NCBI GenBank assembly: GCA_024637095.1
Contig: JAGXFV010000049.1
Coordinates: 62,001-126,000 of the forward strand
Reading direction: 5' to 3'
Length of the DNA stretch: 64,000 nt
From: Actinomycetes bacterium
GTDB taxonomy: Bacteria; Actinomycetota; Thermoleophilia; RBG-16-64-13
Below are positions 3,839 to 15,819 of this stretch, piece after piece (the stretch's first letter is position 1; each line of letters opens with the position of its first letter). Below the pieces are notes generated by a model, which made no database searches, was not told the origin of the DNA, and saw only the letters and a program-made list of their open reading frames with translations. Both the position numbers and the translations under genes were made by a program.

Positions 3839-4588
3839 TCAGCTCGAAGCCAAACGTGCGAGCGCTTCGCGCACCTCGGGAATCAGAATGTTGTTTTCCA
3901 GGTGGACGTGGCGGTGGATGTCGGCCTCGAGCGCAGCCAGCGTCTCGTAGAGCCCGCCGTAGGTGGCGCAGGCGTCCTCGGGGAGGCCATATCCGTCAGC
4001 GATCCTCCGCATTTCCTGGAGGAGACCCCCGGCCACGTCGTGGTCCGCTTCCAGGCCGTCCAACCAATCGAGCAGCTCGGGTGGCGGCGGCCCGAGTGCG
4101 CCTTCTTCGGCCTCCTCGCCCGGAGTGCCCTCGCCCAATGAGTCACGGATGGCCGGGAAGATCACCGTCTCCTCCCGCTCGAGATGAGCCAGCAGATCGT
4201 TCCGTAGACGCTGGAAGACCCGTCCCAGGTCGAACAGTTCTGAATGCCGGTCGCCGTGAACCTGGATCACCTTGGCCAGGGCGGCTCCGGCTTTGGGGAG
4301 CTCTTCCCGCAGGTATTCATGGTGCGCCTGCTCGATGTGGCGGGTGAGCCCCGCCGGAGAGTAGCGTGACCAGTCTTCGTGGAGGGAGTCCTCCCCCTGC
4401 TGAGCTTCGGCCGCAGCCTCGATCTCGGCGATCAGGTCGCCCACCGATAGCTTCGTGCCTTGGACCGCTTCGGATAGTGGCCGGTCTCCCCCGCAGCAAA
4501 AGTCGACACCGTATCTCTCAAAGACCACCAATGAAGCCGGGATGTCGCGAGCGACGTCTCGTATCTTTGATGAAGCCGTAATCGTCAT
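3839..4588 (-). CDS. ric: Iron-sulfur cluster repair di-iron protein (Ric/ScdA/YtfE family)
   Basis: About 249 residues. The N-terminal DUF542/ScdA_N domain has the family CCGG motif (VDFCCGG), and the rest is a hemerythrin-like four-helix bundle with spaced histidines and carboxylates (HIEQAHHEYL, VHGDRHSELFDL, HLEREETVIFP, LEADHD, HRHVHLENNILIP) that would hold a di-iron centre. Family members repair iron-sulfur clusters damaged by nitric oxide or oxidants. I chose ATG 4588 (MTITASSK) because GGAGGAGG precedes it; the frame extends further upstream but without a ribosome site. Its place next to cydAB is sensible, since bd oxidase tolerates nitric oxide, but they are convergent and not an operon. 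Confidence 0.9.
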   Translation of the reverse strand: MTITASSKIRDVARDIPASLVVFERYGVDFCCGGDRPLSEAVQGTKLSVGDLIAEIEAAAEAQQGEDSLHEDWSRYSPAGLTRHIEQAHHEYLREELPKAGAALAKVIQVHGDRHSELFDLGRVFQRLRNDLLAHLEREETVIFPAIRDSLGEGTPGEEAEEGALGPPPPELLDWLDGLEADHDVAGGLLQEMRRIADGYGLPEDACATYGGLYETLAALEADIHRHVHLENNILIPEVREALARLASS

Positions 4589-4705
4589 TGAAGCGCCTCC
4601 TCCTCCGACCAGCGGTCGTGTTGGTCTATTCATACCCTTAAGGGGTGGGGGTGGTAACGGACAGGCGCAGGTAGTCGGCACCGTGGGGTCTTGCGCATGG
4701 GACGA

Positions 4706-4769: not shown

Positions 4770-5840
4770 CTAGCTCAGCGGATAGCGCCCGTACTCCTCG
4801 GCCGCCTCCATCATGGCGATCGCGTTCAGCAGCGGACCGTTTGGCGGGAACTCGCACCCGGTGGAAAGGATGTACCCACCGCCCGGGCCGAGGACCCGGA
4901 TCTGCTCCTTACAGGCTTCCTTCACCTGCTCGGGGGTGTGGAGAATCATGTCCGGGCTCGGCGGCATGTAGCCGATCAGGCAGACCTTGCTCCCGTACTT
5001 CTCCTTGAGCTCCTCAGGGGTCTTGCAGTCGTCCGGAAGCCATGCGAAAGAGATCGCCGCGGGATCCATGGCCTCTATCTGGACGTCGAAGTACACGTCG
5101 TTACCGCAATTGTGTACGATCGGCAGCATGTTGTTCTTCCGGCACCGGTCGGCGATCTCGGTCGTGAAGGGTCCCTCCATCTTCTTCCAGAGGTCCTTGC
5201 TCATGATGGATCCAGAGGCGAAGAGGGTGTCCAGCACGATGGCATGAGCTCCCGTTTCGCCGAGGGCGTCGATTTGTTCCAGAAGGACGTCGGTGACGAT
5301 CCGGCACGCGGCCCTAACTTCGTCCGGGCTCTTCATGCAGTCCAGGAACAACTTCTCTGCGCTCCGGAGCATGGCAAGGATACCCAGCGGACCGTAGAGG
5401 AAGGTCATGACGGCGGTGCGGTCGCCCATCGCCTTCATCACGCCGTCGGTGTAGCGCTGCAGGTATCTCATCCGCGTAGCCTTGCGGGGGTCGATGTGCT
5501 CGAGCTTCTTGTAGTCCTCGACCGTCTTGATGAGGGGACTGCCGTAGACGGGATGTGGCGTGTCTTCGAGCGGGTACACCATCTCGGCGCCGAAGTCCGC
5601 CGCCTCGACCGAGAGGTCGACGAGCATCAGCACGCCATCCATGCCGATCAGCTTCTCGGCATGGATCATCGACTCGATTGCGAGGTCCGCGTCCTGGGCC
5701 CATTCCTGGTAGCTAATGCCGAGGACCCGCCGGGCCGCTGCACAGACCAGTGGACCCGCCGGCACGCGGTCGGCTTCCTTGAATTGCAATGCGGCGACGA
5801 CTCGCTCTAGACCCGTCATTTGTTCGGTTCTTATTGCCAA
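4770..5840 (-). CDS. UroD-fold methyltransferase (MtaA/CmuA-like), uroporphyrinogen decarboxylase family
   Basis: 356 residues of the UroD superfamily. True haem-pathway HemE is unlikely. The protein has His243-x-Cys245 (VHNCGND) and a distant Cys329 (TGCEFPPNGP), which is the zinc-binding H-x-C...C pattern of the methylcorrinoid-dependent methyltransferases (MtaA, MtbA, CmuA). Those enzymes move a methyl group between a corrinoid protein and a thiol or pterin. No corrinoid-binding protein is encoded nearby, so the acceptor is unknown. TTG 5840 follows AGGGGGA at normal spacing; ATG 5819 is an alternative start. It is the last gene of a six-gene minus-strand operon with two P-loop GTPases and a MoxR/VWA pair, 79 bases after the GTPase stop, and is followed by a strong terminator. 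Confidence 0.85.
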   Translation of the reverse strand: MAIRTEQMTGLERVVAALQFKEADRVPAGPLVCAAARRVLGISYQEWAQDADLAIESMIHAEKLIGMDGVLMLVDLSVEAADFGAEMVYPLEDTPHPVYGSPLIKTVEDYKKLEHIDPRKATRMRYLQRYTDGVMKAMGDRTAVMTFLYGPLGILAMLRSAEKLFLDCMKSPDEVRAACRIVTDVLLEQIDALGETGAHAIVLDTLFASGSIMSKDLWKKMEGPFTTEIADRCRKNNMLPIVHNCGNDVYFDVQIEAMDPAAISFAWLPDDCKTPEELKEKYGSKVCLIGYMPPSPDMILHTPEQVKEACKEQIRVLGPGGGYILSTGCEFPPNGPLLNAIAMMEAAEEYGRYPLS

Positions 5841-5919: not shown

Positions 5920-6546
5920 CTAGGTGCTTTGTCCCTTCACCTCCTCGCTCGACTCTCCCAGTAGAGTTGAAATTAGCTCCTCCGCGCCCTCTCCTGTGCG
6001 GAAACTGGCACGGAACAGACGACCCTGCGGCCTCGACCCGTGGATCGCCTCTTCGATGGCGGCGAGGGCATCCGGGGATGACCGGTCGATCTTTGTGATC
6101 GCGACCAGATCCGCCTGCTGAAGCTGTTGCTCGGTTATGTGCGCCATCTCGATACCGAAAGTGTGCTCTCGATTGTTGGGATCGAGCAGCAGGAGAATCT
6201 GGCCGGCCCGGATTCTTCCCAGCCGATCGGCCCCAGCGACCGCAGCCCTGATCTCCCTGGGGATGACGATCCCGGCGGGCTCGGCCAGGACGTATTCGAG
6301 CCGCTCCCTGTAGAGTTCGCTGAGCGCCCCTGCGAAGCTCCCGGCCTCGCTGCAGCCGATTCACCCACCGCCGATGCTCCGGATGGGGAACCGCTCCATT
6401 ATCGTGTCGGTCTCCGGTTGGACTTCGCCGGAGTCGTTGATGACCGCGCCCGCCCGCCCGCCGCGGCGGGCGATCTCCTCGAGTGCGGCCAGAATAGCGG
6501 TTGATTTGCCCGCGCCCAACATGCCGATTACCGAAAGGACCTTCAC
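5920..6546 (-). CDS. Probable selenocysteine-containing CobW/HypB-like GTPase (in-frame TGA at codon 62)
   Basis: Reading from GTG 6546 gives a P-loop GTPase start (GMLGAGKST, residues 8-16). Codon 62 is TGA (6363-6361), and the same frame then stays open for 146 codons to TAG at 5920. Across the TGA it reads IGGG-[TGA]-IGC, which aligns with IGGGCICC of the paralogue at 7066-7761, so the TGA stands at the first Cys of the CxCC metal motif. Similarity continues afterwards: LAEPAGIVIPREI here against LVEPTGVAIPRQV in the paralogue, and a G4 motif TKID at residues 151-154. A hairpin starting 10 bases after the TGA meets bacterial SECIS criteria. Total length would be 208 residues. The GTG start overlaps the preceding stop by four bases (GTGA). 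Alternatives are a recent nonsense mutation or a base error. No sel genes are in the window. Confidence 0.72.
6332..6350 (-). promoter_or_regulatory. Candidate bacterial SECIS element
   Basis: In the minus-strand RNA, GCGAGGC (6350-6344) pairs with GCUUCGC (6338-6332) through seven pairs, one of them G-U, around a 5-base loop CGGGA. Seventeen bases separate the UGA from the loop, and the second loop base is G. These values fall inside the published bSECIS pattern (loop 3-14 bases, G in the first two positions, 16-37 bases from UGA), at its short-distance edge. The loop lacks the GU of the E. coli fdhF element. Confidence 0.6.
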
Positions 6547-7064
6547 CGCTGGGGATCCTCTTGCTCGGGTTCGTTCTCGAACTGCGCCTGAAGTTGGGCG
6601 ATGTGCTCCTCGTCGCTCGCGAAGTCGTACTCGTCGAAGTAGAGGTGCTCGCGCTCTTTGACCACGCGGAGCCGGTGCCTCTCGGCCAGACTGTGAGCCG
6701 CCGCGAGCGTTGCCTGCTTGACCTCCTCTTCAGAGATGCCCTGAACTATGGAGTTGATGGCGACATACAGGTCCTTGGCCGGTCCGCGCAGCTCACCGTG
6801 ACTGGCCGCAGGGTGCTTCACCCCGATGGTGTCGGCTTTGAGCGTGCCCTGTGAGCACACCAGGTGAGACTTGATGTGTCCCACGAAGCGTGCTCCCCGG
6901 GCGACGCAGTCCCGGGCTATCTCGTCCATCATCTCGCGCAGGAGCCCGGCGATCTCCTCTGGGGGAAGGGGTTTCTCCGCGTGCAGCTTGACTGCGACTC
7001 CGTAGCCGCTAACGCCGTGATCGAGATAGCAGGCGTCGTCCAACAGATTCTCCTCCTCGGGCAA
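6543..7064 (-). CDS. Unknown 173-residue protein between the two GTPases
   Basis: I do not recognise this family. TTG 7064 is the likely start, with GGAGGTGA eight bases upstream and the preceding GTPase stop only two bases away; the frame runs further upstream but would then overlap that GTPase. The protein is soluble and mixed alpha/beta. Its middle has a cluster of potential metal ligands: His, Cys and Asp within the stretch HIKSHLVCSQG...DTIGVKHPAASHGEL. The C-terminus is acidic (EPEQEDPQR). Its stop overlaps the start of the selenoprotein-like GTPase, so the two are translationally coupled. Position between two metallochaperone-type GTPases suggests a partner, substrate or adaptor in metal or cofactor handling, which is inference. 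Confidence 0.75.
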   Translation of the reverse strand: MPEEENLLDDACYLDHGVSGYGVAVKLHAEKPLPPEEIAGLLREMMDEIARDCVARGARFVGHIKSHLVCSQGTLKADTIGVKHPAASHGELRGPAKDLYVAINSIVQGISEEEVKQATLAAAHSLAERHRLRVVKEREHLYFDEYDFASDEEHIAQLQAQFENEPEQEDPQR

Positions 7065-7065
7065 G

Positions 7066-7761
7066 CTACTCACCTCCCTGCCGTGTGGCGCTGTCAGGAT
7101 CGATGCCGCCCCTATTTGCCGCATCCCCCCCGGCCTCAGTACCGGGTGCGATTCGCTCGAGCAGTTGATCGACGCCTCGACCGGTGGTTGCGGAGACAGC
7201 GATGAACTCGGCCGTGGGGATGACCTCACGGGCCGCCGCTCGGGCGAACTCCAGCTGCGCTTCGTTGACCGCATCCGCTTTGGACACAGCCACGATGTCC
7301 GCGTCAGAGAGCTGTGCCGTGACCAGCCGCCCCATGAGCTCCGGATCCAGCAGCTCTTCAGGCCGGGTTGAATCAAAGAGGACAATGACGGGGCCGGCTT
7401 CGATGGTAACCGTCCTCCCGCTCATTGCGGCAGCGGCTTTGACCTGCCGGGGAATCGCTACTCCGGTGGGTTCGACGAGGACCAAATCTGGGCTGAAGGT
7501 GCGGGCCAGATCGGCGATGGATTTGGCGAAGGCCGTCGCTACTTCGCAGCAGATGCACCCTCCTCCGATGTCTTTCACCTTCATTCCCGACTCCTCCATT
7601 ACCTTGCCGTCTACGGGAATCTCGCCGATCTCGTTGACCACCATGGCGATCTTGAGACCCCGTTCCTCACTCAGGCGGCGGGAGAGCTGGAGCAGTAGGG
7701 TGGTCTTCCCGCTTCCAAGGAATCCCGCTATCTGGACCACTCGCAAGTTCTGTTTGGCCAT
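7066..7761 (-). CDS. CobW/COG0523-like P-loop GTPase, putative metallochaperone
   Basis: 231 residues. The Walker A is GFLGSGKTT (residues 12-20), and the metal motif GGGCICC places Cys69, Cys71 and Cys72 in the CxCC pattern of COG0523 G3E GTPases. A G4-like SKAD and a LVEPTGVAIP segment follow. The usual CobW C-terminal domain of about 100 residues is missing, so the protein is a minimal G-domain like HypB or UreG. Family members deliver or gate metals (Ni, Co, Zn) using GTP. It starts eight bases after the VWA gene and is followed by the unknown 173-residue gene. The paralogue two genes on has Sec (TGA) at the position of Cys69 and Gly at that of Cys71. Confidence 0.9.
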   Translation of the reverse strand: MAKQNLRVVQIAGFLGSGKTTLLLQLSRRLSEERGLKIAMVVNEIGEIPVDGKVMEESGMKVKDIGGGCICCEVATAFAKSIADLARTFSPDLVLVEPTGVAIPRQVKAAAAMSGRTVTIEAGPVIVLFDSTRPEELLDPELMGRLVTAQLSDADIVAVSKADAVNEAQLEFARAAAREVIPTAEFIAVSATTGRGVDQLLERIAPGTEAGGDAANRGGIDPDSATRQGGE

Positions 7762-7769
7762 GGGGCCTC

Positions 7770-10427
7770 CTACGCCGTCAGGTTGCGATAGATTCTGGGC
7801 AGCCGGGTTGGCAGGTGGCTGACGTTCTGAATCACCGTGTAGTGGTATTCGCCGAAGAGGTCGTCCAGGTAGGCGGGGCCTTTAGGGTCGACTGTGATGC
7901 AGAAGGCCTTGACCCCTTTGCGCCTGGCCTCGGCGAGCGCCATGCGAACGTCTTCGGTGGCGTAACGGACATCGCCGTAACCCAGATCGTATGGGCGTCC
8001 GTCGCTGAGGAGGACCAGCAGGCGGGACTCGGCGGGCTCCCCGGCCAGATGATCCGTGGCGTGGCGGAGAGCGGCGCCAAGGCGGGTGTAGTCGCGTGGT
8101 TCGACGCCGCCAATACGGCCGGCGACTTGGTCGCCATAGTCCTCATCGAATGCCTTGATGGTGAAGAGATCGACCCGGTGACGTCCCTCACTGCTGAAGC
8201 CCATGATGGCGTAACGGTCGTCCAGTCTGTCGATGGCGTTCGAGAGCAGCACGAGCCCCTGTTTCTCGACGTCGATGATGCGCCTCCCCGCTTCTACCTT
8301 CTCGTCGGTTGAGTCGCTCATGTCGAGCAGGAAGAGCACAGCGACGTCCCGCACCTTCTTGTCCCGCCTGATGTAAAGCTGATCGGTCATAGGAGCGCCC
8401 GCCGCCCGGTCAACGAGGGCATCTGTCAGGGCGTCCATATCCAGCTCGTCGCCGTCCGTCTGCCTGAAGTAGCGTCGTATTCGCTCTGGGCGCAAACGCT
8501 CGAATTGTCTCTGGATCAGATGGACTTCGCCGGCATACTCCTCGAGGGTCTCTTCCGCGAAGGTGGTTGCGCCGGTGGGCAGGCGACGGCAGCGGACCGT
8601 GATCCAATCCTTCTTGTAGTCGTCCGCCTCGTAATCCCATTCGTCGTACTTGAAGGTGCCGTGCCCCGCATCGTCTTCCGGAGGCGGTTCGTCTTCGAGC
8701 AACCGCTCATCCTCACTCCCGTCGGTGTCCTTGAACATGATCTCCAGTTCGGGCATCACTTCCGCGGGGTGGAAACTCTCCGGCAGCTCCAGACTCGAGC
8801 CGGGCGTCCCAAGGGTGATTCCAGAATCGTCCCCTTCAGCCGCGTGTCCGGCTGCCAACTGCATGCCCAGTGGAAAATGGTCGTGGAATGGCGGATACGG
8901 CACCTCGGCCAGGTCGAAATCCTTCATCCGCCTGGGAGAGCCGCCGTTCCCCTCAAGCCAGAGTTGCTCCATTTGCTCGAGCAGCCGCGCAGCCACCGCC
9001 AAGGCATCCTCCGGACCCGCGGACAGGTCGCGCAAGGCCTTGGTGTTTTCGGTTATCAGGCGCAGATGGGCGTCGTCAGCCAGCAGGCGAATCCCAAAGG
9101 GAAGGGCTACGAGTTGGGCCCGCAGCGTGGCGGGGGTCAAGTCCACCCGCCGGTTGGCCGGAGGCAAGAACTCAGCATAGATCTGCCGAAGAACGAGTTC
9201 GGCGTCTTGCCGCAGACCGGGAAGCGCATGGAAGAGGAGGTTGTCGATGCGGTGATCTTCGGCGAGCCCGACGAGGAATCGCTCCAGCCGTCTCGATGCT
9301 CCCTCTTCGCCGGAATGCCGCTTATCGAGCAATGCCGCGACCAGGCGTTCGTCGCGGAAGCTGCCAAACCGGGTGTGCGCCGCGGAGTGGAGCGCCACCA
9401 GTTTGTAGAGGGCGAGCGGAGAGCGGCCCAGGCATCCGAGCGTCGGACGAATGTGAATCGCTCGGCCGTCATTGAATGCGGGCACGTCCGGGGGAATGGT
9501 CGTGGGATCCAGCACGTCGAACATGCTTCGCACGGTAACCGGCTTACCCAGAAAGGCCTCGAGCAGCAGGCCAATCTTCCCCCTGAATGCCGAGAAGGAG
9601 GTGTGCCGGCAGAGCAACTGCACGGCTTCCTGGCTGCGCTTGGAACCGTAGGACATGTAGAGGACCAGGTCCTCGTCACGCGTGGCGACTTCCAGCCCCA
9701 AGTTGACCCACTCGCGCAGCTGCTCTACGGTCATTCCGGCGAGCAGAGCCGGTAGCGCCTGGAACATCCCTTTGACAGCATGGCGGGAACGCTCCGCCAC
9801 GCGCGCGCCCAATTCTCCGAGAACGGGAAGATCTTCGCGGGACAGCCACTGCGATCCCCGGCCCACTGAGTTCAAGAACCCCTTGGCGGCACGCCAGTCG
9901 GTGTCGAGGAGCAGCAAAGCCTCAGCATGCCAGTCTCGCAGGAAGGGAAAATCGCGTCGGGCGAGGACGGTGGGTGCCTGCTCGAAGTAGGTGGACGCCA
10001 GATCGATGTCGCGCGTCAGTTCGACTCCGCGCGCAGTGACCTCGCTGAACTGCTCGGCGGGAAGAAGCGGTGCCAGGGACTTGGTCATCTGCAGGTAGGC
10101 TTGAACAAGGCGCGGGGAACGGCGGGCGAGGACGGGCACGGTCTCGTGCACCTTTTCCCGGATTCCGGGGTTTTGCCCGAGTGAATCGAGGCCCTCCAGG
10201 GCGTCGGCGAGAAACGAGCGCTTATCCCGCAGGCGTTGAGGTGTCAGGTACTCCGCCAACTCCACCCAAAGGGCGAGGTCTTTGGGTGGCATGACCTCGA
10301 GGTAGCCCCGTTGCGACTCTGCGAACCGGCCCACCTCCCCTTCGAGCGAAGTGGCGAGCCCAATCAGATCTTGCCGCTCTTCTTCGGTTTCAGCGATGCC
10401 GGTGGTGTTATGAGTATTGCCGCTCAC
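7770..10427 (-). CDS. Large VWA-domain protein, CbbO/NorD-like
   Basis: 885 residues. A long helical N-terminal part of about 600 residues is followed by an acidic linker (about 580-610, rich in E and D) and a C-terminal von Willebrand A domain (about 690-885). The MIDAS is visible as DMSDST, a threonine in the DYTRLG segment, and a later Asp in LLSDGRPYD. This is the architecture of NorD and CbbO, which work with a MoxR-family AAA+ partner to insert metal or remodel enzyme active sites (NO reductase, Rubisco). The partner is encoded immediately upstream (19 bases). Neither NorBC nor Rubisco is in the window, and here the downstream genes are GTPases and a UroD-like methyltransferase, so the target may differ. 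Confidence 0.88.
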   Translation of the reverse strand: MSGNTHNTTGIAETEEERQDLIGLATSLEGEVGRFAESQRGYLEVMPPKDLALWVELAEYLTPQRLRDKRSFLADALEGLDSLGQNPGIREKVHETVPVLARRSPRLVQAYLQMTKSLAPLLPAEQFSEVTARGVELTRDIDLASTYFEQAPTVLARRDFPFLRDWHAEALLLLDTDWRAAKGFLNSVGRGSQWLSREDLPVLGELGARVAERSRHAVKGMFQALPALLAGMTVEQLREWVNLGLEVATRDEDLVLYMSYGSKRSQEAVQLLCRHTSFSAFRGKIGLLLEAFLGKPVTVRSMFDVLDPTTIPPDVPAFNDGRAIHIRPTLGCLGRSPLALYKLVALHSAAHTRFGSFRDERLVAALLDKRHSGEEGASRRLERFLVGLAEDHRIDNLLFHALPGLRQDAELVLRQIYAEFLPPANRRVDLTPATLRAQLVALPFGIRLLADDAHLRLITENTKALRDLSAGPEDALAVAARLLEQMEQLWLEGNGGSPRRMKDFDLAEVPYPPFHDHFPLGMQLAAGHAAEGDDSGITLGTPGSSLELPESFHPAEVMPELEIMFKDTDGSEDERLLEDEPPPEDDAGHGTFKYDEWDYEADDYKKDWITVRCRRLPTGATTFAEETLEEYAGEVHLIQRQFERLRPERIRRYFRQTDGDELDMDALTDALVDRAAGAPMTDQLYIRRDKKVRDVAVLFLLDMSDSTDEKVEAGRRIIDVEKQGLVLLSNAIDRLDDRYAIMGFSSEGRHRVDLFTIKAFDEDYGDQVAGRIGGVEPRDYTRLGAALRHATDHLAGEPAESRLLVLLSDGRPYDLGYGDVRYATEDVRMALAEARRKGVKAFCITVDPKGPAYLDDLFGEYHYTVIQNVSHLPTRLPRIYRNLTA

Positions 10428-10445
10428 GCGCCGCCTCTTCTCCGC

Positions 10446-11336
10446 TCAGGCGGGGAAGACAGTTTCCACAAGCTCTTGCAGGGTCTCTAGCATGTCCTCA
10501 TCGTCGGTGAGCGGCTTGACCATGGCCGCGTCGGCCGCCCGCCGGGCCGGCACTCCCGCCTGGATCAGGCGGGAAGCGTACACCAACAGGCGTGTCGAAA
10601 CCCCTTCTTCCAGTCCGTGATCACGCAGGTTGCGAACCATTGCGCCCAGTTCGACCAGTTGTTCTGCCAGCTCTCGGGTGGCACCGGTTTCCTCGACCAG
10701 GATCTCGGTTTCGACGGCCTTGGGCGGGTACTCGAAATCGAGGGCCATGAATCGCTGGCGGGTGGACTGCTTTAGGTCCTTGAGAATGCTCTGGTAGCCG
10801 GGATTGAAGCTGACCACCAGCATGAAGTCCGGATGGGCCTCGATCAGATGCCCCTTCTTCTCGATGGGCAGGATGCGCCGATCATCGCCCAATGGATGGA
10901 TGATGACCGTCGTATCCTTCCGCGCCTCGACCAGCTCGTCCAGATAGCAGATGGCACCGTGCCGGACGGCCGCGGTCAAAGGCCCGTCGATCCACTTGGT
11001 CTCGTTCCCGATGAAGAGATAGCGGCCGACCAGGTCGCTCGCCGTCAGGTCCTCGTGGCAGGCCACCGTCACCAAAGGGAGATCTAGCCGGAAGGCCATA
11101 TGCTCCAGAAAACGGGTCTTGCCGCTTCCGGTTGGCCCCTTGAGCATCACCGGCAGCTTGAGCTCGTGCGCGCGCTCGAATAGCTCCACCTCGTCACGGA
11201 TGGGGCGGTAGTAGGGTTCCTCGGCGAGTCGGTAGTCCTCGAGGGAGAGTTCTTGCCCGGGGTGCAGATGCGTCTTCACGAAATTCACCAGCCCGTTGGG
11301 GATGGACGAGGACAATTGCCCGCACAAGTGACGCAT
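10446..11336 (-). CDS. MoxR/CbbQ/NorQ-type AAA+ ATPase
   Basis: 296 residues. Walker A is GPTGSGKT, Walker B is [11 protein letters not shown], and an RQRFMALDF segment supplies the arginine-finger and sensor region typical of the CbbQ/NirQ/NorQ clade. The C-terminal CbbQ_C region (about 220-296) is present. These hexameric ATPases act with a VWA partner to remodel or load metal into a target enzyme. First gene of the six-gene operon; its stop is 19 bases before the VWA gene. A good promoter-like pair lies 30 to 57 bases upstream. ATG 11336 has only a weak GAGG upstream, so the exact start is uncertain. Confidence 0.92.
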
Positions 11337-11365
11337 AGAAAACGGCCAGCCTCTGCGAGGCAGGA

Positions 11366-11393
11366 ATTGTATAGGCAGATTTGCCGGTGTCTA
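11366..11393 (-). promoter_or_regulatory. Candidate promoter of the MoxR/VWA/GTPase operon
   Basis: On the minus strand TAGACA (11393-11388) and TACAAT (11371-11366) are 16 bases apart, a near-consensus sigma-70 pair. Transcription would begin near 11359, leaving a leader of about 22 bases before the AAA+ gene. Confidence 0.5.
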
Positions 11394-11471
11394 CTCCTAA
11401 TCAGCGGAACGGTCGACCTGCCCGGATTGTCGGAGACGGCTGGTCGACGGATGGCGATGCATCGGCCCACT

Positions 11472-11513
11472 AACAAAGGGCGGCCCGGCGGCGGGCCGGA
11501 ATCGCCCGCCGCG
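11472..11513 (-). terminator. Terminator of the D-lactate dehydrogenase/larA operon
   Basis: A perfect 9-bp stem (GCGGCGGGC 11488-11496 with GCCCGCCGC 11504-11512) lies 24 bases past the larA stop. On the minus strand the hairpin is followed by more G/C pairing and then CCCTTTGTTAG. It separates larA from the downstream operon promoter. Confidence 0.6.
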
Positions 11514-11536
11514 CCCGTGCCTTCCTGGATGGGCGC

Positions 11537-12829
11537 CTACAGCCGGGGCGCGGTGATCATGTCCCTGTCCGGGACCCGCGGAACCGTCACCGTTCCGTCG
11601 GTGAGCAGCACGACGCTGGCCGAGGGCCCCTTGCGGAAGAGGGCTGCGTCCACGGCCTTCTGCACGTCGGCGAAAGGACGGATGAAGGCGGCCTCCATGT
11701 CCTCCGGAGGGATGCTGGTAACTCCCCAAATCTCAGCCTTTTTGGAGATGTGCGCAAGCCGCGCCGCCTTGTGGTAGCCCAACACATACTCGCCCTTGAT
11801 CGAATCGAGCACCGCCTGCGGGGTGGGCTGCCCCGCCAGGAGATTGAAGAAGGTTTCGTCGCCGATCCCGTGCCGGCATTTGCTCACCAAAATCAGAATG
11901 CCGCCTTCCTTCAGCATGAGAGAGCCGTTCTCGATCGCCTTCTGCGACTGATAGAGGTCGTAGTCCATGGGATACGAAGCCACGGCGATGACGATGTCGG
12001 CGGCCTCGGGGACGTCGACCACGTAGTGCATGTCGGCGTGCTCGACGGCATCTTCGAAGCTCTTCTCCAGCTCGCCCGCGTGCACGGAGTGAATGCGGTG
12101 CTGCCGGTCGATGACCATCTGGATGGAGAAGATGGGCATGTTCCCGGTCTTCTCGCGGAAGATAGCGATACTCTCCATCATGTCTTCGTGAACCGGGTTG
12201 CCCTCCAGCGACAGGATCTCGGCCTCCGGTTCGAGGGCGAGCCGATGGTTTGCCTGCACGGTCTCGAAGCCCGCGACTCCCGGGAAGATCGATTTGCGTC
12301 CGCCGGTGTACCCCGCGAAGTAGTGGGGCTCCACCGAGTTGACCAGCACCAGCCGCTCCGCCTCGAGGACGCGGCGGTTGACCCAGAGCGGTACTCCTCG
12401 CGAGGTCTCCCCCAGGTACTCGAGCTCGTCCTTGTTGCGGGCGTCGTGCGCCCAGACGTGACCGAACCAATGGGCGCGCGCCGTGCGGCCCAGGATCTGC
12501 TCGAGCTCCTCCTCGTTGGGCGGCTTGTGTGTGCCGGTGGCCACCAGAAAATCGACGTCGTGACCCTCGAGGTCCTCCTTAAGAATCTCGAGCAGCTTTG
12601 GTGTCGGGGTGGGCCGGGTCGCGTCGTTGACTAGGAAGAGGATCTTGCCTTTGGACGCAGCCAGAAACTCGGGAAAACTGGGCTGGCCGTCGTGAGAGTC
12701 GAGAATCGAATGCAGATGGCCGGCCTCTTCGCGAACTTTTACCGTCTTGGGTTCGATGATGCCGCGCAGGCGGCGGCGATCGATCTTCAGGGGTACGGTT
12801 CCCATGTCCCAGCGGACGTCTATGTACAT
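11537..12829 (-). CDS. larA: Nickel-dependent lactate racemase family protein (LarA, DUF2088)
   Basis: 430 residues from ATG 12829 (MYIDVRWDMG). The N-terminal domain has the NDATRPTP motif, and the centre carries the PHYFAGYTGGRKSIFPGVAGFETV...NH block. In Lactobacillus LarA this region contains the lysine that is covalently joined to the nickel-pincer nucleotide and a nearby nickel-ligand histidine, both apparently kept here (GGRK and NH). The family racemises lactate or epimerises related 2-hydroxyacids. It follows the D-lactate dehydrogenase gene by 53 bases on the same strand, which suggests interconversion of L- and D-lactate feeding that enzyme. No larB, larC or larE cofactor genes are in the window. 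The open frame extends far upstream into the neighbour but only in shadow. Confidence 0.88.
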   Translation of the reverse strand: MYIDVRWDMGTVPLKIDRRRLRGIIEPKTVKVREEAGHLHSILDSHDGQPSFPEFLAASKGKILFLVNDATRPTPTPKLLEILKEDLEGHDVDFLVATGTHKPPNEEELEQILGRTARAHWFGHVWAHDARNKDELEYLGETSRGVPLWVNRRVLEAERLVLVNSVEPHYFAGYTGGRKSIFPGVAGFETVQANHRLALEPEAEILSLEGNPVHEDMMESIAIFREKTGNMPIFSIQMVIDRQHRIHSVHAGELEKSFEDAVEHADMHYVVDVPEAADIVIAVASYPMDYDLYQSQKAIENGSLMLKEGGILILVSKCRHGIGDETFFNLLAGQPTPQAVLDSIKGEYVLGYHKAARLAHISKKAEIWGVTSIPPEDMEAAFIRPFADVQKAVDAALFRKGPSASVVLLTDGTVTVPRVPDRDMITAPRL

Positions 12830-12882
12830 CGGCTCGCCCCTTCGCTCTTTGTCATCGCCGCGGCTCTCCTGCCGCGCCTGCT

Positions 12883-15819
12883 CTACCTGCCCTGATCGAC
12901 GGCGTAGGCCTGGCAGAGGATTCTGGCCGGATGAATGGCCTTCAGGCCGGTGCCGTCTTCCAACTGCATTCGGCAGGTGCTGCACTCCGTCAAGATAACC
13001 TCGGGTTGGACTTCGGCCACCCGCTCGAAGAGGGGCCGGCCGCAGTCCATCGAGAGTTCGTAGGTATCCCTTTTCATACCGAAGGTTCCCGCCATACCGC
13101 AGCAGCCGGCGTTGAGGTCGGCGACCTCGAGCCCCGGCACCTCGCGCAATAGATCGAGGAAGGCGGCTCCGGGCTTCTGGGCCTTCAGGTGGCAGGGCAG
13201 ATGGTAGGCGGCCTTCATCTCCACCCGCCGGGGCTGCGGCGACCGTTCGGGATGGTCCGCCCGGAACTTGGCCAGGAACTCGCCCAGGTCCCGCGTGGCG
13301 GCGGCCACCACGGCCGCCGCCTGTCCCTCCGGGCTCTCGGTGCCCAGATAGTCGTTGTAGTGCTCCTTGAAGGCAAGGGTGGCCGTGGGCTCGCCGCTCA
13401 CCAGAAGGGCACCGCCCTCGACGGCGGCCTTGGCCCCGATGACGTTTCGGGCTGCCGCCTGCCACGCCTTCTCCCGGTAGCCGTACAGCATCTCGGGGAT
13501 GCCGCTCGCCTGTTGATCGGGGAAGGTAACCTCGATCCCGTGGGCCAGCAACAACGCCTCCATGCACTCCGCCAACGAAGGATCGTGGTAGTTGGCATAG
13601 AGATCGTAGAAGAACGCCACCGAAGCAGCAGATGCCGCCTCGCCCCGGGGAAAGGCCTTGCCCAGGGCGCCGGCGTCCCGTTCTTTGAGCCTTTGTGCGA
13701 AGGTCTTGGCCGCGAAAGGCGGCATGGTGCGCCGGCGGTCGATCCCCGTGACGCCCTCGGCCACCTTCCGCAGGAGCTTATGGTTGGCCAGTCGGCCCGA
13801 GACTGCGGCAGTGCTGCTTCCCGTCTTTGAGAGGCGTTCGGGGTCGCCGAGCAGCCGGTCGGTCGCGCTGCCGGGATGCGCGTCACGGTACCGCGCCTTG
13901 GCTTCCAACATGAGTTTGGGGATGTTGACGTTGGAAGGGCATTCCACGGCGCACATACCGCACTCGATGCAGTAATCCGTGATCAGCTTGAGCTCTTGAT
14001 CCGCATGCGTAGACTCGGGGTCGAGCCGGCCGGAGAGGATGTTCCTCAGCACGTTGGCCTTGGCCCGGGGTGAGGCGTGCTCCCGCTTGAGCGCCTTGTA
14101 TGTGGGGCACATGGTGGTCGCCACCAAGCTCTTGCACTGAGCGCAGCCGTGGCACTTTTCCACCTCGGCCTGGTAGGCACCGTTCTCCCAGGCGAGCACG
14201 GTGCTCTGGTCGTATGTCCAGTAGTCCGCGCCGTAACGCATGTTCTGAGCGGCGCCGCCGCCGATCCCCGGTTGCAGGATTTTCTTGCCGGGGTTCATTA
14301 TCCCGGTAGGGTCGAGGGCGTCCTTGACCTCCTGGAACACGCCGTAGACTTCTTCGCCGTAAACCAGTGGAATCAGTGGCGTGCGCACCAGTCCGTCGCC
14401 GTGCTCGCCCGAGGGCGTGCCGCGCAACTCCAGCACCATCTCGACGACTTCCTCCAGCAGACGTTGCATCTTGGCCAGGTCTTTCGCGTCCTTGAGGTCG
14501 AGCAATGGCCGGGTGTGGACGTTGCCGTCGCCGGCGTGACCGTACATGATCCCGGGGATGTCCATCCCTTTGAGCATGCCGTCCAGGTTCTCCATGTAGT
14601 CGGCCAATACCGAGGGGTGAATGGTGACGTCCTCGATCACCTCGGCGATCCGCTTGGGACCCGGCAGCTTCTGCAGCAGGGGGACGGCGGTCTTGCGCAC
14701 CTGCCAGAGTTCCTCCTGCTCCACCGGATCAAGCGCCCGCTTGACCTCGACGGCGGGGCCTCCGGCCAGCAGGCTTTCCAGGGAGCGCAGCCTCTCGTCG
14801 AGCTCGTCGGTGTCTGCGCCTTCGAACTCGATCAGAAGCGCGGTGTTGGCGCCCGCCGGCAGCATGGCGTCCAGCTTGGGAAGTTGGGTGCGGACGAAGG
14901 TCAGGAAGTTGGAATCCATTATCTCGAGCGAAGTGGGCTTGAGATCCAGAATGGGGAAGACGGCCTCGCCCGCGGCCCTTACACCCGGGAAGTAGGCCAT
15001 AGCGATGGCGCGCTTGCCGGGGAGCGGCACGAGATTGAGGGTTGCCTCGGCGATCAGGCCCAGGCTGCCCTCGGAACCGACGAACAGCTTCTGCAGATTC
15101 ACCCGGCCGTCCTCGATCACCGTCTCGAGCCGGTAGCCGCTGGCGTTCTTCATCACGTGCGGTTGGGCTCGACGAATAGCATCGCCCTTGCTCTCTAGCA
15201 GTGGCAGGATCCGGCTGAAGGCACTGGCGGGGCCACCCGAGCCACCGACCAGTCTCGCCAGATCGCCGTTGCGCGCGACCGTCCCGGCGTCGAAGAGCTC
15301 CCCGCCGCTCAGGGCCATGCGCAAACCGAGTACGTGGTCGATGGTCATCCCGTATGCGACCGAGCGTGATCCCGAGGAGTTGTTCGCCATCATGCCGCCG
15401 AGCGTGCAGTAGTTCTCACTCGAGGGGTTGGGCGCGAAGAAGGTGCCGTAGGCTTTGACGTGCGCGTTGAGCAGGCCCATGACCACACCCGGTTGCACCC
15501 GTGCCCACGAGCCGTCCTCGGCCACCTCCAGAATCTTGTTCATGTGGCGGGTGAAGTCGACCTGCAGGCCGGGACCCACCGCCGCCCCGGCGAGACCGGA
15601 ACCCGCCCCGCGCGGCACGAGCGGCACGCCGTTCTCGGTGGCGTAGGCGACCAGCGCGAGCAGATCCTCGGTATCGCGCGGCGACACCACCCCGATCGGG
15701 GTGATCTGGTAAAGTCCCGCATCCGTGGCATAGAGGTGGCGGGTGAAGCTGTCGAACTCGACGTCGCCACGAAGCTGCCGACGCAGGTCGCGCTCGAGAG
15801 CATTGATGCTGGGTCTCAT
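12883..15819 (-). CDS. FAD/iron-sulfur D-lactate (or D-2-hydroxyacid) dehydrogenase, fused GlcD-GlpC type
   Basis: 978 residues. Residues about 40-230 form a PCMH FAD-binding domain (PRGAGSGLAGAAVGPG, then NNSSGSRSVAYGMT), followed by the FAD-oxidase C-terminal domain with the HAGDGNVHTRP motif. From about 554 there are two cysteine clusters for [4Fe-4S] binding (CHGCAQC and CIECGMCAVECP), and the last third is a CCG-type domain (YHLPCHLKAQ, NAGCCGMAGTFG). This is the YdiJ/Dld2-like architecture that oxidises D-lactate, glycolate or D-2-hydroxyglutarate and passes electrons to the quinone pool or another carrier. Location in front of larA favours D-lactate. The start ATG 15819 has no strong ribosome site. 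Confidence 0.92.
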   Translation of the reverse strand: MRPSINALERDLRRQLRGDVEFDSFTRHLYATDAGLYQITPIGVVSPRDTEDLLALVAYATENGVPLVPRGAGSGLAGAAVGPGLQVDFTRHMNKILEVAEDGSWARVQPGVVMGLLNAHVKAYGTFFAPNPSSENYCTLGGMMANNSSGSRSVAYGMTIDHVLGLRMALSGGELFDAGTVARNGDLARLVGGSGGPASAFSRILPLLESKGDAIRRAQPHVMKNASGYRLETVIEDGRVNLQKLFVGSEGSLGLIAEATLNLVPLPGKRAIAMAYFPGVRAAGEAVFPILDLKPTSLEIMDSNFLTFVRTQLPKLDAMLPAGANTALLIEFEGADTDELDERLRSLESLLAGGPAVEVKRALDPVEQEELWQVRKTAVPLLQKLPGPKRIAEVIEDVTIHPSVLADYMENLDGMLKGMDIPGIMYGHAGDGNVHTRPLLDLKDAKDLAKMQRLLEEVVEMVLELRGTPSGEHGDGLVRTPLIPLVYGEEVYGVFQEVKDALDPTGIMNPGKKILQPGIGGGAAQNMRYGADYWTYDQSTVLAWENGAYQAEVEKCHGCAQCKSLVATTMCPTYKALKREHASPRAKANVLRNILSGRLDPESTHADQELKLITDYCIECGMCAVECPSNVNIPKLMLEAKARYRDAHPGSATDRLLGDPERLSKTGSSTAAVSGRLANHKLLRKVAEGVTGIDRRRTMPPFAAKTFAQRLKERDAGALGKAFPRGEAASAASVAFFYDLYANYHDPSLAECMEALLLAHGIEVTFPDQQASGIPEMLYGYREKAWQAAARNVIGAKAAVEGGALLVSGEPTATLAFKEHYNDYLGTESPEGQAAAVVAAATRDLGEFLAKFRADHPERSPQPRRVEMKAAYHLPCHLKAQKPGAAFLDLLREVPGLEVADLNAGCCGMAGTFGMKRDTYELSMDCGRPLFERVAEVQPEVILTECSTCRMQLEDGTGLKAIHPARILCQAYAVDQGR

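Follow-up and report, generated by a model that had tools for sequence, protein, structure and literature searches.

Does a TGA inside the reading frame of a GTPase gene end translation, or is it read as selenocysteine (Sec), and what would selenium do in such a protein? These questions arose from a preliminary description of the window (the whole 64,000-nucleotide stretch of DNA analyzed here), in which a probable selenoprotein GTPase had been proposed. The proposal was borne out: SelA, SelB, SelD, and tRNA-Sec are present in the genome, the TGA is kept in all six orthologues, and selection continues past it. Decoding of this TGA as Sec is near certain by sequence, and we hold with good confidence that the product would be a selenium-dependent metal chaperone, a CobW-type GTPase in which Sec would bind metal together with Cys65.

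The interrupted gene and its orthologues

The gene has the following features:

5920..6546, minus strand: gene for a CobW-type (G3E) GTPase with an in-frame TGA; the product has 208 residues, of which residue 62 is predicted to be Sec, and a PF02492 domain
6502..6525, minus strand: Walker A motif GMLGAGKS, residues 8-15, from the sequence and the alignment with Escherichia coli YjiA
6361..6363, minus strand: TGA codon, residue 62, predicted Sec, in the context IGGG-U-IGC; opposite Cys64 of E. coli YjiA, the first Cys of CxCC, in the alignment
6352..6354, minus strand: codon of Cys65, the last residue of UxGC; it corresponds to Cys67 of YjiA and is TGC in all six orthologues
6332..6350, minus strand: SECIS-like hairpin with a 7-pair stem and a 5-base loop, CGGGA, beginning 18 bases past the TGA

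The frame (6546-5920, minus strand) runs from a GTG start to a TAG stop and, as had been described, is broken by a single TGA at 6363-6361. Its product matched PF02492 with 73.1 bits (gathering cut-off 20.7), which together with the Walker A motif places it among the G3E GTPases. PF02492 was the only domain found in the 208 residues, and no C-terminal CobW_C domain was detected. The G4 motif is TKxD among the six orthologues, with TKTA in one genome. When the structural model was compared with the PDB, the top matches were G3E proteins, with HypB at ranks 1-3, MMAA at 4, and UreG at 5.

The 146 codons that were said to stay open, and similar to the paralogue, after the TGA do so. Third-position GC in the window gene is 0.82 before the TGA and 0.75 after it, coding-like on both sides. 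Past the TGA, dN/dS was 0.119/0.393 (about 0.30) between the window and a genome of the same genus and 0.096/0.619 (about 0.16) in a second close pair, and purifying selection was similar on the two sides. Because dN/dS stays below 1 and third-position GC remains coding-like after the TGA, the open stretch is, by these measures, more than chance.

Among 61 genomes, including that of the window, 18 gave some match to the Sec GTPase and six carried a full-length orthologue (E 1.5e-44 or better). All six have a single inner TGA, and its codon position is shared down to 41% identity. It had been expected that some homologues would have TGA and others TGC or TGT at this position; the first kind was found in all six orthologues, but Cys occupied the position in none of them. 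The lower-scoring matches listed had no inner stop. Of 399 genomes searched across the class, 11 gave matches with an E of 1e-20 or lower, and the six best of these were again the six orthologues. One lower match of that search listed with a TGA, G039:C263, was rejected as a Sec candidate: its protein (L026, an open frame of 252 codons' worth of residues) has CICC and no inner stop, so the listed TGA lies past the end of that protein. Five loci carrying the gene family belong to metagenome-derived genomes that bear the labels Actinomycetota, Thermoleophilia, or Actinomycetes. When 396 genomes of the phylum were searched with the family NF041053, a TGA was listed in two matches, the genome of the window and the one of the same genus; the other four carriers are missing from that match list and probably lie outside the sample.

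In the alignment with YjiA, U62 falls on Cys64, Gly64 on Cys66, and Cys65 on Cys67, so that the site is UxGC, not CxCC. The context IGGG-U-IGC is invariant in the six orthologues, and Gly replaces the middle Cys in every one. The earlier claim that Sec takes the place of the first Cys of CxCC therefore holds for the position but not for the rest of the motif: because the middle Cys has been lost, the predicted site is a two-ligand U..C rather than a CxCC with Sec swapped in. At the TGA position, YjiA has Cys, as do 17 further CobW-type proteins that were read. Eighteen CobW-type loci were chosen from the genome, class, and phylum searches, and all 17 that could be read have CxCC (L031 gave no match).

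The protein database, in which 7994 candidates were scored, holds at least 26 proteins that match the six-row orthologue alignment. Among the matches listed, 18 close ones are fragments of 118-130 residues whose alignments start at residues 73-84, that is, 11-22 past the TGA; three of them, at 99% identity or more, come from the six genomes, and the remaining 15 are different proteins (84% or less). The other eight, again among those listed, are far weaker (72 bits or less), and one that was read (P0020) has CICC. No close full-length Cys form was found among the database matches listed, and Sec in this GTPase is, on present sequences, apparently obligate. We infer a TGA upstream of the 15 further fragments. 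Eight out of the 18, including the G012 fragment, are on contigs that equal in length a contig with a Cys-type paralogue (among the best 120 of 1356), which suggests that the two genes are linked there as well. Because the 18 close copies among the matches listed are truncated, the family is easily missed by annotation.

Selenocysteine machinery and the reading of the TGA

A check for the sel genes had been recommended. In the genome (2.47 Mb, 96.55% complete), SelA was found with 555 bits, its gene directly before that of SelB; SelB and SelD were above their cut-offs; and tRNA-Sec scored 74.9 bits, with the anticodon tca. All four components of the bacterial machinery are thus present and, judged by its genes, the host is able to make selenoproteins. 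SelB was over the cut-off in 40 of the 61 genomes, including all six carriers, and tRNA-Sec in five of the six, the miss being a 78%-complete genome. The SelD gene has one in-frame TGA itself, in the context GSG-U-ACKLG (L109, G000:C40:12598-13521), so SelD is probably a selenoprotein too. A predicted hairpin follows this TGA, its loop starting 21 bases past it (18 in the GTPase gene) and its fold energy giving a z of -1.04. SelD serves as a same-genome control for the GTPase gene, with a fold energy that is likewise unremarkable.

The hairpin that had been noticed in the SECIS position was recovered, at 6350-6332 with seven pairs, and is conserved, but its energy is not unusually low for the composition (z 0.10); in the other five orthologues, z ranges from -0.49 to -2.19. 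The stem is paired in 92.9% of the cells of the six sequences, a value reached by 12 of 500 shuffles and falling to 26-43% when the stem is slid along the alignment. One covarying pair was seen, G-C being replaced by C-G, and 391 of 500 shuffles contain at least as many. Support for the window hairpin comes from conservation, not from energy. Excess synonymous conservation points to the same place, as the top eight of 188 ten-codon windows begin at codons 0 to +8 past the TGA. Codons +6 to +9 (GCC GGG AGC TTC), which form the loop and the upper stem, are identical in the six genomes. The matching ten-codon window of the Cys paralogue, compared across these genomes, ranks 29 of 192. The gene thus has a conserved hairpin right after its TGA, as is expected of bacterial selenoprotein genes.

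Reading of the TGA as Trp or another common amino acid, by a changed code or by near-cognate read-through, is the least probable explanation: an open frame by itself does not identify the residue, but TGA serves as a normal stop within this cluster, since it ends the upstream gene ORF176 in an overlap with the start of the Sec gene, and it also ends the Sec gene itself in three of the six genomes, while the genome has a complete Sec system and Cys holds the position in YjiA and its 17 relatives.

Scarcely more probable is a true stop, in a GTPase gene that has either decayed or come to be made as two separate pieces. Gene callers do cut at this codon, leaving 18 database proteins, among the matches listed, that consist of the post-TGA part only, and the window hairpin has no special stability. 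A real stop is hard to reconcile, however, with a TGA at the same codon in six of six orthologues as far apart as 41% identity, with purifying selection alike before and after it, and with an invariant IGGG-U-IGC around it. The called fragments, moreover, start at differing internal sites (alignments from residue 73 to 84). The preliminary description had named three grounds for giving up the selenoprotein, namely, a lack of sel genes, Cys in all homologues, and similarity decaying after the TGA, and none of these held. The GTPase is very probably a real and functional selenoprotein, as far as sequence can tell.

The gene cluster and the proposed function

The genes and signals around the Sec GTPase gene are:

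11366..11393, minus strand: promoter-like site before the MoxR gene; consensus match (1 in the region, where chance alone would give 1.3)
10446..11336, minus strand: MoxR-type AAA ATPase with a CbbQ/NirQ/NorQ C-terminal domain; PF07728 110.7 bits, PF08406 109.1 bits; in six of six genomes
7770..10427, minus strand: VWA-domain protein, NorD/CbbO-like by domain and neighborhood; PF00092 39.0 bits; in six of six genomes
7066..7761, minus strand: Cys-type GTPase paralogue, IGGGCICC; PF02492 117.9 bits; in six of six genomes
6543..7073, minus strand: ORF176, a conserved 176-residue protein, ferredoxin-like in its structural model; the gene ends in a TGA that overlaps the start codon (GTG) of the Sec gene
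4770..5840, minus strand: MtaA/CmuA-like methyltransferase (URO-D fold) with HNC...C, the last gene of the cluster; PF01208 179.5 bits
4711..4741, minus strand: terminator-like hairpin after the MtaA-like gene, with 13 pairs (10 of them G-C) and a T-rich tail; consensus match, 8 found against 4.8 expected

The order MoxR ATPase, VWA protein, Cys-type GTPase, ORF176, and Sec GTPase is the same in all six genomes. The paralogue with IGGGCICC is, as reported before, two genes upstream of the Sec gene (7761-7066), with the 176-residue gene in between. A MoxR ATPase with a CbbQ_C domain beside a VWA protein is the arrangement by which MoxR-VWA metal-insertion systems are recognized. The MtaA-like protein scored 107.8 bits against TIGR01463, below the cut-off of 235.4. 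A gene of this kind with HNC...C, at 70% identity or closer, is next to the Sec GTPase in three of the six genomes (the window's own included); in the other three, the second gene past the Sec GTPase codes for a URO-D protein that is more distant and lacks HxC. The HxC...C of MtaA is presumably zinc-holding.

Several genes were observed outside this cluster. Just past the terminator-like hairpin, at 3839-4681 (minus strand), is a gene for an iron-sulfur repair di-iron protein (RIC/YtfE; TIGR03652, 209.5 bits, cut-off 204.7). At 11537-12829 (minus strand) is a LarA-like nickel-pincer racemase, whose best NCBIfam match was the LarAH6 malate racemase (345.9 of a 500-bit cut-off), and directly upstream of it, at 12883-15819 (minus strand), is a 978-residue FAD/4Fe-4S/CCG fusion resembling GlcD or D-2-hydroxyglutarate dehydrogenase. 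Three relatives share a different set of genes past the Sec GTPase. In locus L050 (reverse-strand coordinates 10057-14942), these encode, in order, a 4Fe-4S protein, a URO-D protein, a protein of 90 residues, two proteins with DGC domains, and a GCV_H-like protein; L051 and L052 have the same gene order, with families taken from the L050 copies.

In the five other carrier genomes, ORF176 is 72-91% identical to the window protein, and its size across the six is 161-176 residues, depending on the starts chosen. No Pfam or NCBIfam family matched it, and its model (pLDDT 74.6) has a ferredoxin-like fold. Among the 396 phylum genomes, strong matches were obtained in two (the window's own and that of the same genus) and weak ones in six. 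The weak matches in G000:C49, G001:C7, and G007:C93 adjoin a CxCC GTPase, and those in G000:C49 and G001:C7 end in a His-rich tail (L097:8291-8698 and L098:7090-7650). Such tails are frequent in nickel and zinc chaperones. The position of these distant relatives beside CxCC GTPases and their His-rich tails suggest that ORF176 is a metal-handling partner of the GTPase.

Since the TGA falls on the likely metal-binding spot, and does so at the same place in five related genomes, selenium is probably a metal ligand in this protein. If the predicted Sec62 binds metal with Cys65, the protein is likely a selenium-dependent metal chaperone, and metal chaperoning is the likely role from sequence. Its best reading would be a Sec-dependent chaperone that works with a NorQD-like metal-insertion machine, whose metal and client we infer. 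In this mechanism, SelB and tRNA-Sec would decode the TGA, and the Sec GTPase, with its Cys-type twin and ORF176, would take up metal at the UxGC site in a GTP-dependent manner, zinc or cobalt being the first guesses. The metal would then go to the MoxR and VWA proteins. These two, if they act as NorQ-NorD do, may remodel an apo-enzyme at the expense of ATP for metal insertion. The client could perhaps be the downstream MtaA-like methyltransferase. We counted against the chaperone reading that the usual three-Cys site is down to two ligands, and against the methyltransferase link that the HNC-bearing gene is next door in half of the genomes only. The fuller picture of one selenium-dependent machine, made of a MoxR-VWA motor, a CxCC GTPase, an obligate Sec-Cys GTPase, and ORF176 as a detached metal-handling partner, with Sec as metal ligand and not redox center, is put forward tentatively.

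Sec might instead be redox-active, forming a selenenylsulfide switch with Cys65 in a UxxC pair like that of thioredoxin-like selenoproteins, which we consider rather improbable. A review table (PMC13188914) gives UxxC as the motif of many thioredoxin- and glutaredoxin-type selenoproteins, a second review (PMC9312934) considers most selenoproteins of prokaryotes to be redox proteins, and the loss of the middle Cys would agree with such a pair. The fold and the neighbors, however, are typical of metal-handling systems, and the site is where CobW-type proteins are thought to hold metal. Should selenium be a metal ligand here, the presence of Sec in the metal site of a chaperone GTPase, with no Cys counterpart found, would open to experiment the question of why cells spend selenium on moving a metal. 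The selenoprotein is also tied to a conserved metal-insertion cluster, so that a client enzyme can be sought.

Comparison with known families

The preliminary description did not count G3E GTPases among the commonly listed selenoprotein families, a point that needs correcting. CobW-type selenoproteins are already catalogued with the motif UxxC in review tables (PMC13188914, PMC9312934), the first of which credits the CobW-related selenoprotein to a study of the Olavius algarvensis symbionts (Zhang and Gladyshev 2007). The best NCBIfam match of the Sec GTPase is NF041053, the "CobW-related selenoprotein" (CobW_rel_Se), so the kind is known. From the listed motif, NF041053 members probably have Sec at the same first-Cys position.

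Whether the Sec GTPase is a plain Actinomycetota member of NF041053, with nothing distinct about it, is the alternative that survives best, and we still regard it as unlikely. The match spans profile positions 2-194 of 195, and both are CobW-type GTPases with UxxC, which here is UIGC in six of six. The score, however, is 98.5 bits against a cut-off of 180, lower than those of Cys-type proteins, namely, the window paralogue (132.9) and two Thermodesulfobacteriota proteins (119.9 and 128.5), and none of the 396 phylum genomes gave a match above the cut-off. In a tree of 36 proteins, the Sec clade formed one group (100/100) on a long stem beside the Cys paralogues; long branches may join falsely, and descent from the Cys paralogue of the cluster appears likely. 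The clade may also be a sister group of NF041053. Here, the TGA form was detected in a single Actinomycetota family, and its gene is clustered with MoxR-VWA and ORF176.

With the COG0523/CobW/YjiA chaperone GTPases, the Sec GTPase shares the PF02492 domain, the Walker A motif, and the position of the metal motif. These proteins have CxCC, whereas the Sec GTPase has UxGC in all six genomes and lacks a detectable C-terminal CobW_C domain, which most COG0523 members have. All COG0523 members are described as having CxCC, and RV0106, with CxSC, is set apart as an outgroup that is only COG0523-like (PMC2770081). For CobW, binding of Co(II), probably at CxCC, is reported to be over a thousand times tighter with GTP than with GDP (PMC7689651). 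The MtaA-like neighbor, present in three of the six genomes, recalls COG0523 subfamily 13, which is found beside corrinoid methyltransferase genes, e.g., mtaA, mtaB, and mtaC; in its description of this subfamily, that source makes no mention of Sec or MoxR-VWA, unlike the cluster here (PMC2770081). A text search of the literature returned no paper that combines metallochaperone, selenocysteine, GTPase, and SECIS.

The G3E fold is shared with the nickel chaperones HypB and UreG, although the Sec GTPase has no His-rich stretch, has a Sec site, and is in a cluster whose six genes include no hydrogenase or urease. MoxR-VWA pairs assist in metal insertion, NorQ-NorD doing so for nitric oxide reductase (PMC13036017), and the adjoining MoxR ATPase with CbbQ_C domain and VWA protein resemble both NorQ-NorD and CbbQ-CbbO. 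To that arrangement the present cluster adds two G3E GTPases and ORF176, and none of its six genes codes for nitric oxide reductase or Rubisco. The Sec GTPase is thus, on sequence and gene order, a distinct variant of the known CobW-type selenoproteins, set apart by its apparently obligate Sec, its predicted two-ligand site, and its place in a conserved metal-insertion cluster.
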